Shown one piece after another: positions 631-5,305 of a stretch of 8,447 nt of DNA. Position 1 is the stretch's first letter; each line of letters opens with the position of its first letter. The stretch is from a bacterium (GTDB lineage: Bacteria; NPL-UPA2; JAGMAN01). The notes below the pieces were generated by a model. That model was not told where the DNA came from. It saw only the letters and a program-made list of their open reading frames with translations, and did not search any database. The position numbers and the translations under genes were made by a program. Where the stretch lies: positions 1 to 8,447 of the forward strand of contig JAGMAN010000045.1 of assembly GCA_023130215.1 (NCBI GenBank), read 5' to 3'.

Positions 631-2247
631 ATGCACCGCCCGCTGGTTGGAATTGCACTCTTCTATATAACAGGTATTTTCCTTGGTTTCTGTCTGGGCG
701 CTACCTTTCTCCACCCTAATTATTTACACCTTCCTCTTATCATGCTCTTCCTAACTATGGTCATCTCCTTCATCAAAAGAAAACCCAGCCTTAGCAACAT
801 CCTCATCCACATCTGTCTCTTATTTCTGGGCACGGTGGTCTATCTCCTGAAAGCTAACCCTTCTTATCCCGGACACATTTCAAATTTATTATTTGAGGGA
901 GAGGAGATGAAAAGAGTGGAACTGGAAGGGACGATTATTAAGGATCCGGAGGTGAGAAGCATTGGTAGGGGGGAGAAGGAGTCCAGGAACGACGATGAAA
1001 GAACATCAGAGAAGAGAACAATCCTCACTGTCAAAGCGGAAAGGATCAAGATACCCCTTTCGGCTCCCCCCTCACCCCTACCCTCTCCCAGGGGAGAGGG
1101 GAAAAAAGGAAAATGGGAGAAGGTGGCTGGGCTGGTGCAAATTTCAGTTTATAGGGAAGATGCGGCTTTCGACTACGGCAAGAGGATAAGGGTAAGCGGT
1201 TGCCTCAGACAGCCTCCTCTGCCGGAGAATCCAGGACAGTTTGACTACCGCAGTTATTTAGTTCGCAAAGGGGTCTATGCCCTCATGACTGTCCACCATA
1301 AAGGGCAGATTGAATCTCTTGGTATTGGCAAAGTGAATCCCTTCGCTAAGTTAGCCTTCCTCATTAAAGATAAAATGAAGAAAGTTCTTAAGGAGACTCT
1401 AAGATATCCCCAAGATGTCCTGCTGGCAGGGATTCTCTTAGGGGAACGGTGGGGAGTTCCTCAAGAGTTGAAAGAGGTATTCACTCAGACCGGGACAGTG
1501 CATATCTTAGCCATCTCCGGACTGCATGTTGGATTGGTAGTGGTAATCTTCATGGTCCTGTTACGGACTATTCGCATCCCCAGGAAAATAAGGGCTATGC
1601 TTACTATAGCTCTGGTCATTCTCTATGCTTTAGTCACCGGGGGACGCCCATCGGTCATCCGGGCTTCAATTATGGCCATAAGCATATTGAGCGCAGCCGC
1701 CATTGGACGTGATAGTGACCTGCTGAACAGCCTTTCTTTAGCCGCTCTCCTTATTTTAGCTGTTAATCCGTTAGAGCTATTTGATTCTGGCTTTCAGCTA
1801 TCCTTTGCCGCCGTCCTATCCATAATCTACCTGACGCCTAAGATAAATAGCCTTTTTCCGAAGGGCTATCCGCCAGCGACTGTCCTTAAGGGATACTTCT
1901 TGAGGTCACTCTCAGTAATATTAGCTGCCCAACTGGGCATCCTTCCACTCATCGCTTACTACTACAGCCTCTTCTCGCCAGTAGCTCTTGCCGCCAATTT
2001 CATTGTGGTTCCTCTGTTAGGAGTGGTGGTAGCCTTAGGTTTTAGCACCTGCCTCTCTGGTCTCCTCTTTCTCCCTTTAGCCCAGGTCTTTGGAGCAGCC
2101 AATGGGATAGTTCTAAGCGGGGTAGTAGGTTCAGTTAAATTTTTAGCTTCTCTACCGCTGGCTTTTATCTACTTAGGCAGTCCCCGAATAGAATTTATAG
2201 TCATATACTATCTTGCCCTGGGAGCAATTTTCTATGCGATTAAGTAA
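631..2247 (+). CDS. comEC: ComEC/Rec2 N-terminal membrane channel part
   Basis: This is the membrane part of the DNA-uptake channel ComEC, 538 residues. Hydrophobic segments at about 4-26, 32-47 and 57-73 are followed by a soluble DUF4131/OB-like region (about 85-235, with NPGQFDYRSYLVRKGVYAL). The polytopic competence domain follows, with its hallmark HILAISGLHVGLVVV starting at residue 291 and GGRPSVIRASIM further on. Full-length ComEC proteins continue into a metallo-beta-lactamase domain; here that domain is a separate overlapping ORF. Residues 146-158 (PPSPLPSPRGEG) come from a GC-rich palindromic repeat at 1066-1101 and interrupt the expected strand-to-strand join between KAERIK and VAGLVQ. 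A charged, low-complexity stretch (residues about 109-127) may be a second insertion. ATG 631 is the first ATG after an in-frame stop at 610-612 and suits the family N-terminus, but no good SD site precedes it. Confidence 0.93.
   Translation: MHRPLVGIALFYITGIFLGFCLGATFLHPNYLHLPLIMLFLTMVISFIKRKPSLSNILIHICLLFLGTVVYLLKANPSYPGHISNLLFEGEEMKRVELEGTIIKDPEVRSIGRGEKESRNDDERTSEKRTILTVKAERIKIPLSAPPSPLPSPRGEGKKGKWEKVAGLVQISVYREDAAFDYGKRIRVSGCLRQPPLPENPGQFDYRSYLVRKGVYALMTVHHKGQIESLGIGKVNPFAKLAFLIKDKMKKVLKETLRYPQDVLLAGILLGERWGVPQELKEVFTQTGTVHILAISGLHVGLVVVIFMVLLRTIRIPRKIRAMLTIALVILYALVTGGRPSVIRASIMAISILSAAAIGRDSDLLNSLSLAALLILAVNPLELFDSGFQLSFAAVLSIIYLTPKINSLFPKGYPPATVLKGYFLRSLSVILAAQLGILPLIAYYYSLFSPVALAANFIVVPLLGVVVALGFSTCLSGLLFLPLAQVFGAANGIVLSGVVGSVKFLASLPLAFIYLGSPRIEFIVIYYLALGAIFYAIK
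1066..1101. repeat. GC-rich palindromic repeat inside comEC
   Basis: A C-rich lead (CCCCCCTCACCCCTA) runs into a perfect inverted repeat, CCCTCTCCC (1081-1089) paired with GGGAGAGGG (1092-1100) across a 2-nt loop. From memory, this resembles the interspersed 'CCCTCACCC...CCCTCTCCC' palindromes found in many bacterial genomes, which when read through give peptides like PLPSPRGEG. Here it lies in frame inside the soluble domain of comEC. Base composition differs sharply from the surrounding gene. The assignment to a dispersed family is inference from one copy. Confidence 0.75.
2220..2224 (+). promoter_or_regulatory. Shine-Dalgarno site for the ComEC MBL ORF
   Basis: GGGAG lies 9 nt before ATG 2234, inside the end of the upstream ORF. 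It favours ATG 2234 over the in-frame TTG at 2213, which has no comparable site, and it suggests the second ORF is translated on its own by coupling rather than being only the tail of a broken gene. Confidence 0.6.
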
Positions 2248-3100
2248 ATTCCTAATACTCCTGCTGACCGCTTTAGCCGTCCTAATCTGGGGACTCGTCC
2301 TTCATCAACCTTCTCATCTCTTAAAGGTAACTTTCCTTGATGTAGGGCAAGGAGACTCTGCCTTTATCCAGTTTCCCTGCGGTGGAAACATGCTCATTGA
2401 CGGTGGCCAGGGAGGCCGTTACGATATGGGTAAGAAGGTCCTCACCCCATTTCTTCGAAGAAAAGGAGTGAGGAAGATAGATACTCTCTTACTCACCCAT
2501 CCTCACGCTGACCACGTGGGTGGACTTGCAACGGTGCTCAGAAACTTCAAGGTAGGACTGGTTCTGGAAAGCGGTCAATCCCACACCACCTACTCCTACG
2601 AGGAATTTCTAAGATTGGTTGAGGAAAGAAGGATAAATTATCGGGTGGTTAAAGCCGGCGAAAGGATAGAGGGATATGAAGAGGTAGAGATTCAGATTTT
2701 GAATCCTCCTCCCACCCTCCTGGAAGGAACAAGGTCCGATCTCAACAACAACTCAGTGGTTTTAAAGATAGCATATAGGAAGGTAAGCCTTCTCTTAAGT
2801 GCTGACATAGAGAGGGAGGCAGAAAATAGATTGCTCAGATATGGGCAGTTGCTGAAGAGCACTGCAGTTAAAGTCCCTCACCAGGGAAGCCGTTCCTCGA
2901 GCACCAAGCCTTTCCTGGATCTGGTTGACCCTGAGGTAGCTATCATCTCAGTGGGAAAGCATAATCCCTTCGGCCATCCTTCGCCCATCGTCCTAAAGAG
3001 GTATGAGGAGATGGGGACAAAGGTCTATCGAACAGATAGACAGGGAGCGGTGACCTTTATTAGCGATGGAAGGAAGTTCTGGATTAAAACGATGAAGTAG
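2234..3100 (+). CDS. ComEC C-terminal metallo-beta-lactamase domain as a separate protein
   Basis: This is a 288-residue protein with one membrane segment (about 6-23) followed by the metallo-beta-lactamase domain that normally ends ComEC and is thought to degrade or process the non-transported DNA strand. Motifs: VTFLDVGQGDSAFIQ (32-46), IDGG (55-58), metal-binding THPHADHVGG with H89, H91, D93 and H94, the family stretch LNNNSVVLKI (170-179), D191, and VPHQGS (214-219). The last motif is usually HHGS, so the second histidine is replaced by Gln217. GHPSP and a YRTDRQGAV-type ending complete the fold. It overlaps the membrane ORF by 14 nt in the +1 frame. ATG 2234 is chosen over TTG 2213 for its SD site. 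It may be a genuine split gene, a frameshifted ComEC, or a sequencing error in the TTTT run just before the start. Confidence 0.9.
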   Translation: MRLSKFLILLLTALAVLIWGLVLHQPSHLLKVTFLDVGQGDSAFIQFPCGGNMLIDGGQGGRYDMGKKVLTPFLRRKGVRKIDTLLLTHPHADHVGGLATVLRNFKVGLVLESGQSHTTYSYEEFLRLVEERRINYRVVKAGERIEGYEEVEIQILNPPPTLLEGTRSDLNNNSVVLKIAYRKVSLLLSADIEREAENRLLRYGQLLKSTAVKVPHQGSRSSSTKPFLDLVDPEVAIISVGKHNPFGHPSPIVLKRYEEMGTKVYRTDRQGAVTFISDGRKFWIKTMK

Positions 3101-3114
3101 TTAATTTGTCCTTT

Positions 3115-4242
3115 TCACTTTCCAGATGATGCCAGGGCGGCCGCCCCTAAGATACCTGCATTCTCCAGCTTTGAGATCTCTATTCTGACATCCTCTGAAG
3201 AAACTACACTTTGCATCCCCCTATATTTCTTTATCGCTTTTTCCACCAGTCTCTTCCACCTGATTCCCATCTTGCCTGCTATTACTACTATTTCTGGGTC
3301 AAAAGCCTGTACTGCATTTCTTATCCCCTCGGCAAGAGCATAGGCTGTCTCATCTTCGATCTTTAAGGCTAATTCATCTCCTTCATCTCCCGCCAGGGAT
3401 ACATGCCTGGCTTCAACATATTCAACCTTCTCATCATCGGATTTAGATTGTATCCCGAGGCTTCGAAGACTTCCATCCTTCTCCACCATCTCTATGATCT
3501 TGGTTTTTCTCCCTTGAGTTAGTATTTTCTTAATCCTCTCTTTGGCTACATCACTAACAGCAGTAGCTGAGGCATGCGCCTCCAGACAATCAGGATGCCC
3601 ACAGGCGCACCTTCTACTTTTTCTTCCTGGTGGTAATGCTATAGTTATGTGTCCTAATTCAGCTCCTCTGAACTTGTGTCCGGTAATCTTTGTTGGAATA
3701 TCTGTCCTGGGATGGGCATGGATTACTCCACCGCCCACACCAGTCCCCAATGTATAAACTACTAAATTATGACCGGCTCTACCCCAGCCACCGAAGATTC
3801 TTTCCCCATCAGCGGCCGCATTGGCGTCGTTATCAACGAAGGTTGGCAGGCCTAATTCTTTTTCAGTAATCTTCCCTATGGCCAGACCTTTGAACCCGGG
3901 CAGGTTATGAGCATCGCCAACCGCTTCATTATAGCCATCCCATGAAGGACAGCCAATCCCGATTCCTCTAAATTGAGACTTTCGCTTACAGCACTCGCGC
4001 TTCCAGCACTCGTAAGACGTGTTTGCTTTGCTCTCCTCAATCAACTCATTTATTGCACTTATCATCCTCTTAATGAATTGAGCTGGCCCAGAGCCTGCAT
4101 CTGTTTCCATCTCCTTCTGATGGATTATTTTACCAGAGGAAGTAACAATTCCCAGTTTGACCGTTGTTGCTCCGATGTCTATTCCAACGCTTGCAGCACT
4201 CGCGCTTCCAGCACTCGTAAGACGTGTAGAATATTCAGACAT
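3115..4242 (-). CDS. ROK-family sugar kinase (glucokinase-like)
   Basis: This is a cytoplasmic ATP-dependent sugar kinase of the ROK family, probably acting on glucose or an N-acetylhexosamine; the sequence does not settle which. Visible: N-terminal phosphate loop DIGATTVKLGIV (22-33), VDNDANAA with the likely catalytic base Asp139, glycine-rich LGTGVGGGVI, ExGH signature E195-G197-H198, and the structural zinc site H198, C212, C214, C219 (CACGHPDCLE). At 375 residues it is longer than most family members (about 300-320). Part of the excess is two copies of one 40-bp element, adding residues about 6-18 (TRLTSAGSASAAS) and 74-86 (NTSYECWKRECCK). Removing the first would give MSEYSVGIDIGATT, a normal ROK start. 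The gene faces away from rdgB and converges on comEC with 14 bp between, with no terminator hairpin visible there. Confidence 0.92.
   Translation of the reverse strand: MSEYSTRLTSAGSASAASVGIDIGATTVKLGIVTSSGKIIHQKEMETDAGSGPAQFIKRMISAINELIEESKANTSYECWKRECCKRKSQFRGIGIGCPSWDGYNEAVGDAHNLPGFKGLAIGKITEKELGLPTFVDNDANAAADGERIFGGWGRAGHNLVVYTLGTGVGGGVIHAHPRTDIPTKITGHKFRGAELGHITIALPPGRKSRRCACGHPDCLEAHASATAVSDVAKERIKKILTQGRKTKIIEMVEKDGSLRSLGIQSKSDDEKVEYVEARHVSLAGDEGDELALKIEDETAYALAEGIRNAVQAFDPEIVVIAGKMGIRWKRLVEKAIKKYRGMQSVVSSEDVRIEISKLENAGILGAAALASSGK
3983..4022 (-). repeat. 40-bp intragenic element, copy 1 (inside ROK kinase)
   Basis: This is 39/40 identical to 4188-4227; the only difference is position 3988 versus 4193. 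On the coding strand it contains two tandem 15-bp units, GAGTGCTGGAAGCGC and GAGTGCTGTAAGCGA. It is translated here as about NTSYECWKRECCK, adding three cysteines and a tryptophan. This is a different frame from copy 2. Confidence 0.9.
4188..4227 (-). repeat. 40-bp intragenic element, copy 2 (ROK N-terminus)
   Basis: This is the second copy of the element at 3983-4022, 205 bp away in the same orientation. It is read here as TRLTSAGSASAAS between MSEYS and VGIDIGATT. The reading frame relative to the element is shifted by one base from copy 1, yet both keep the gene open. The net addition seems to be a multiple of three (about 39 nt). Confidence 0.9.
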
Positions 4243-5269: not shown

Positions 5270-5305
5270 GACCCTTGACATCTGAGATGTCAAGGGTCTT
5301 TTTTT
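5270..5305 (+). terminator. Intrinsic terminator after csp
   Basis: The 13-bp perfect stem GACCCTTGACATC (5270-5282) and GATGTCAAGGGTC (5286-5298), with a 3-nt loop TGA, is followed directly by seven T residues (5299-5305). It ends the csp transcript 15 bp after its stop codon and isolates the tyrS operon. Confidence 0.95.

Follow-up and report, generated by a model that had tools for sequence, protein, structure and literature searches.

The DNA-uptake gene comEC of the window, meaning the whole 8,447-nt stretch of DNA analysed here, contains an in-frame insertion built around a palindrome whose element order, tracts and spacing match the published intrastrand-triplex motif (PIT/TM). A second species of the genus carries the element as well, and a relative from the same order has an empty site. 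We consider it probable that a PIT/TM element was inserted once into comEC, in the ancestor of the genus, and is now a tolerated passenger. The reading of the insert as a dispersed palindrome, made in the initial annotation, is supported.

The comEC insertion and its empty site

The host gene (631..2247, + strand) encodes 538 aa with two Pfam domains, DUF4131 at residues 32-222 (1.3e-24) and Competence at 268-536 (1.4e-65). A metallo-beta-lactamase domain is fused to the C-terminus of ComEC in many bacteria; here it is a separate ORF (2234..3100, +; Pfam Lactamase_B, 9.1e-20). The element, read directly from the sequence, occupies 1069-1100 of the + strand as CCCTCACCC-CTA-CCCTCTCCC-AG-GGGAGAGGG. 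The C-rich leader CCCTCACCC (1069..1077), the would-be third triplex strand, is a conserved column block among 17 copies. It is followed by a spacer, CTA (1078..1080), that varies among copies, and by the left arm CCCTCTCCC (1081..1089), which is a perfect 9-bp complement of the right arm GGGAGAGGG (1092..1100). The AG loop between the arms (1090..1091) has 2 nt and is longer in most other copies. Leader and perfect 9-bp inverted repeat are thus present as first described. The palindrome borders read GGCTCC/CCCTC and GAGGG/GAAAAAA, with neither a GTAG nor a CGTC tag. Taken alone, the palindrome is unremarkable, because about 0.29 perfect 9-bp inverted repeats with loops of 0-8 nt are expected by chance at the window's size and composition, and its single-strand folding is not significant, with 29 of 200 shuffles folding at least as well. 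What lifts it beyond chance is its identity to a dispersed family.

To place the insertion we compared ComEC at the protein and DNA level among relatives of the window's own genome (G000; 1.01 Mb in 136 contigs, 90% complete, contamination 0.08%). In G001, a species of the same genus, ComEC (L036) is 76% identical and has the element in frame at the same codon, as KAERVK-MPPLTLPSPQPSPARGEG-PKGEWQ; a named record, L034 (Nitrospirota bacterium CSMAG_2268), aligns identically and is apparently the same genome. ComEC of G003 (L037), from the same order and 64% identical, is free of the insert and reads LRAERIK-KKEKWEQ, an empty site. The element was likewise not found at this site in ComEC of G007 or G008. 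Measured against the empty site, the insertion in the window is 51 nt long (1051..1101, +) and adds residues 141-157, IPLSAPPSPLPSPRGEG; the initial annotation was right about an in-frame addition, and its estimate of about 12 residues gives way to 17. In G001 the insert measures 54 nt. The net change of 3 nt in spacer and loop from one species to the other leaves the reading frame intact. An extra 18 nt of 5' flank can be aligned between G000 and G001 (ATACCCCTTTCGGCTCCC and ATGCCCCCTCTGACTCTC) and is absent in G003. With G001 filled at the same codon and G003 empty, this is an insertion of 51 or 54 nt that preceded the divergence of G000 and G001. The proline-rich loop is missing from G003 and from more distant ComECs; a loop of this kind in relatives lacking DNA likeness would have spoken against a repeat, and G001/L034, the only relative with the loop, shares the DNA too.

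The comEC frame is open throughout the insertion, KAERIK-IPLSAPPSPLPSPRGEG-KKGKWEKVAGLVQ, as had been claimed for both sides of the palindrome. The CTA spacer brings no stop codon into this frame, as the TAA spacer found in other copies would. Comparison with its sister in G001 shows purifying selection on the gene (dN 0.15-0.17, dS 0.41-0.57); NG86 gives dN 0.15 and dS 0.57, with dN/dS about 0.26, and YN00 gives a ratio of 0.41. Since the insertion is a multiple of three and free of stops in frame, it would be translated as a loop in a ComEC that remains functional.

A predicted structure places the inserted peptide in a disordered hairpin loop between strands of an OB-like domain. In the AlphaFold model of residues 81-230, a low-depth prediction from two sequences with a mean pLDDT of 68.5 (the other four models scored 31-42), fragment positions 62-80 form a coil between strands at 49-61 and 81-94. 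Matches in a fold search with this model were weak (best E 0.014) and belonged mostly to SSB/PriB-type OB folds. ComEC of G004 (L041, 1-3162, -) has an SNase domain (PF00565) inside a split DUF4131, at the loop matching the palindrome site. The predicted coil and the SNase insert suggest that the site is an exposed, tolerant hairpin of ComEC. A literature search for the encoded peptides found none.

Copies within the genome, the phylum and beyond

A palindrome confined to this one place in the genome would have spoken against the initial annotation; further copies are present. A pattern search of G000 returned a second exact leader-plus-arm match and two looser ones. Trained on 17 copies, a covariance model recognised four strong copies in the same genome, with E below 1e-7, besides two or three weak matches; the comEC copy scores E 1.5e-8, a value that is flattered because this copy is itself in the model. 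The 21-nt leader-plus-arm pattern matched in 14 of 60 searched genomes from several phyla, and the reversed control pattern had no match in the same 60. Of 5,426 E. coli genomes, 4,794 contain similar sequences, as do plasmids from many bacteria. Of the original view of a gene-avoiding extragenic palindrome, the dispersed family has stood; the family is PIT/TM and not REP, and strict avoidance of genes does not hold in this phylum.

Across nine genomes of the phylum we collected 44 distinct PIT/TM sites (model E up to 1e-4) and checked the long ORFs running through them. About 16 of the 44 lie inside ORFs with Pfam domains, on both strands and in several reading frames. Intragenic hosts are comEC and mfd (two species each), AddA, a DNA methylase and a histidine kinase (two copies each), an Na/Ca exchanger, an Eco57I-type methylase, a BcrAD ATPase, an alcohol dehydrogenase, a PMT-type membrane protein and a TsaB-RimI-like protein. 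Additional copies form the C-terminal tails of a D-Ala-D-Ala ligase, a TPR protein and a carbohydrate kinase. Spanning ORFs of the GC-rich genome G037, most of which lack Pfam support, did not count as genes. In other phyla, 2 fairly clear and at most 6 intragenic cases were seen in about 63 sampled copies. The difference has a Fisher p of 7e-6, of 0.0012 with the generous count and of 0.003 to 0.05 with the stronger home copies only, and is approximate because ORFs and Pfam domains were judged by eye, with no gene caller and with unequal sampling between the groups.

The mfd gene parallels comEC: G001 and G002 share the position of the element, and G003 lacks it; the mfd copies have degraded arms. 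In G002 mfd (L110, ORF 555-2798, +), an in-frame insert of short tandem repeats adjoins the PIT/TM copy after residue 248. The copy in the G008 Eco57I-type methylase (L121 residues 490-501, ORF 2-2677, +) is read in frame and immediately precedes the NPPY catalytic motif. Orthology was rejected for the C52 copy of G000 and the C6 copy of G002, the latter in an antiporter gene: their flanks are similar, but the G000 copy sits between two other genes.

The window also holds a second, unrelated repeat of 40 nt, found twice in frame (3983-4022 and 4188-4227) in a ROK-family gene (3115-4242, -). Both repeats are at the same places in the G002 ROK gene, and more distant ROK proteins of the phylum have no internal insert. 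Further in-frame copies occur in MurB of G001 and in LytB/IspH, AddB and ribosomal-S1-like genes of G002. With no match in 190 genomes outside the genus, this repeat is genus-restricted. At 5270-5298, 3' of a cold-shock-like gene, a perfect 14-bp inverted repeat runs into a stretch of T and looks like an ordinary intrinsic terminator.

Origin of the insert and identity of its tracts

In the explanation that we favour, a non-autonomous dispersed PIT/TM palindrome would have entered comEC once, in the ancestor of the genus, landing between two beta strands of the soluble, OB-like DUF4131 domain. It would be translated as a flexible, Pro/Gly-rich hairpin loop, ComEC would stay functional, and the element would since have been passed on together with the gene as a tolerated passenger. 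We infer neutrality of the loop, function of the ComEC protein and the mechanism of insertion. Several points count against this explanation. Neither transposition nor a mobilising enzyme was seen, the structure model has two sequences behind it, and in the comEC element G000 and G001 agree at all 27 tract positions but not in spacer and loop. At the 72% identity of four-fold sites, the chance of 27 identical positions under neutral drift is 0.72^27 = 1.4e-4, and 0.0024 at 80% identity, in a test that is post hoc and uses one sequence pair. A pure passenger model leaves this identity unexplained; gene conversion, repeated insertion or constraint could explain it.

Two insertions at one hot spot, or gene conversion by other copies that overwrote the element, would give identical tracts beside a differing spacer and loop, and G001 contains many donor copies. 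The 18-nt 5' flank, common to G000 and G001 and absent in G003, favours a single event; conversion may still have followed a single insertion. We give double insertion or conversion a small chance. Constraint would mean that the element is kept for its DNA or RNA structure, with a hairpin or triplex that pauses the polymerase or ribosome, or that tunes comEC and the downstream metallo-beta-lactamase ORF. The preserved tracts are as such a role would have them, but they come from that one post hoc comparison, the mfd arms are degraded, and 29 of 200 shuffled sequences fold as well. For the E. coli copies, promoter and terminator activity and a stable triplex in vivo are all reported to be absent (PMC4666352). 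We find such a function improbable. A broader reading holds that conserved genes of this small-genome phylum regularly accept several unrelated short repeats in frame, PIT/TM being one, and that the comEC palindrome is kept at the DNA level, by function or by conversion; we regard this combination as rather unlikely.

Two further explanations have very little probability. It is possible in principle that an ordinary proline-rich linker evolved at the protein level and resembles the repeat by coincidence, since proline-rich loops are common and a window yields 0.29 such palindromes by chance. The occurrence of the 21-nt pattern in many genomes with none for the reversed control, the model score (flattered as it is) and the reading of the same element in other frames in other genes make a coincidence very improbable. 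With 136 contigs in the genome, an artefact of assembly or binning might be suspected; the independent G001/L034 assembly has the same site with diverged sequence, and contamination is 0.08%, which leaves an artefact practically negligible.

Relation to known palindromic repeats

PIT/TM was described by Holder et al. 2015 (PMC4666352), where earlier work by Hoyne and Maher is cited. The comEC element has the defining three G/C-rich tracts, two forming the hairpin and the third able to occupy the groove, with a 3-nt spacer and a 2-nt loop. Reversed, the window copy reads CCCTCTCCC-CT-GGGAGAGGG-TAG-GGGTGAGGG, compared with CCCTCTCCC-TGA-GGGAGAGGG-TTA-GGGTGAGGG for E. coli copy 17 (PMC4666352). 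The motif is dispersed in many bacteria; copy numbers here are modest, with 4 strong copies in G000 and about 16 in G001. The 23 copies of E. coli K-12 are always intergenic (PMC4666352), a reported property that is not part of the definition, whereas the present element is in frame in a conserved gene, common to two species, and many copies of this phylum are also within genes. No clear function and no proven triplex in vivo are reported for the E. coli motif, and triplex formation as a single strand in vitro is reported for that motif only (PMC4666352).

GTAG/CGTC REPs (PMC3733652) are likewise palindromes of 20-40 nt, some of them intragenic, including in replication and repair genes. The comEC element differs in having no tag, another three-tract layout and no RAYT association that we could find. 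A Y1 (RAYT-type) transposase was not found in G000, at 90% completeness, and is present in G001, G003 and G004; the element was not found in 10 Y1 loci examined in other genomes. Identity with REP or with REP/RAYT (REPtron) systems was rejected on the missing tag, the missing transposase in G000 and the lack of an element near the 10 Y1 genes. A Y1 transposase as mobiliser of the PIT/TM element is possible, with no link found.

PIT/TM repeats occur in hundreds of bacterial genomes, are strictly intergenic in E. coli as described, and lack an agreed function or mobility. In-frame insertions that can be dated from filled and empty sites mean that these repeats behave like insertions, and such sites give the boundaries of the element and reveal which protein loops tolerate it. 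No report of such repeats in candidate phyla came up in a literature search, and as far as searchable papers show, the novelty lies in the PIT/TM family being inserted in frame, repeatedly and at datable sites, in this phylum. A close parallel is the Rickettsia RPEs (PMC10969869), dispersed palindromic elements in frame in unrelated metabolic genes and often common to related species. Like them, the elements in comEC and mfd are in-frame insertions with homologues that lack them; unlike RPEs, which are about 150 bp and encode a conserved peptide, they have a core of about 35 nt, are read in several frames and belong to an unrelated lineage. In-frame palindromes are established for RPEs and for some REPs, so the phenomenon is known and the PIT/TM case is a variant of it. 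Together with the second repeat family in essential genes, it makes this lineage a place to ask, outside Rickettsia, whether new protein segments can come from selfish repeats.
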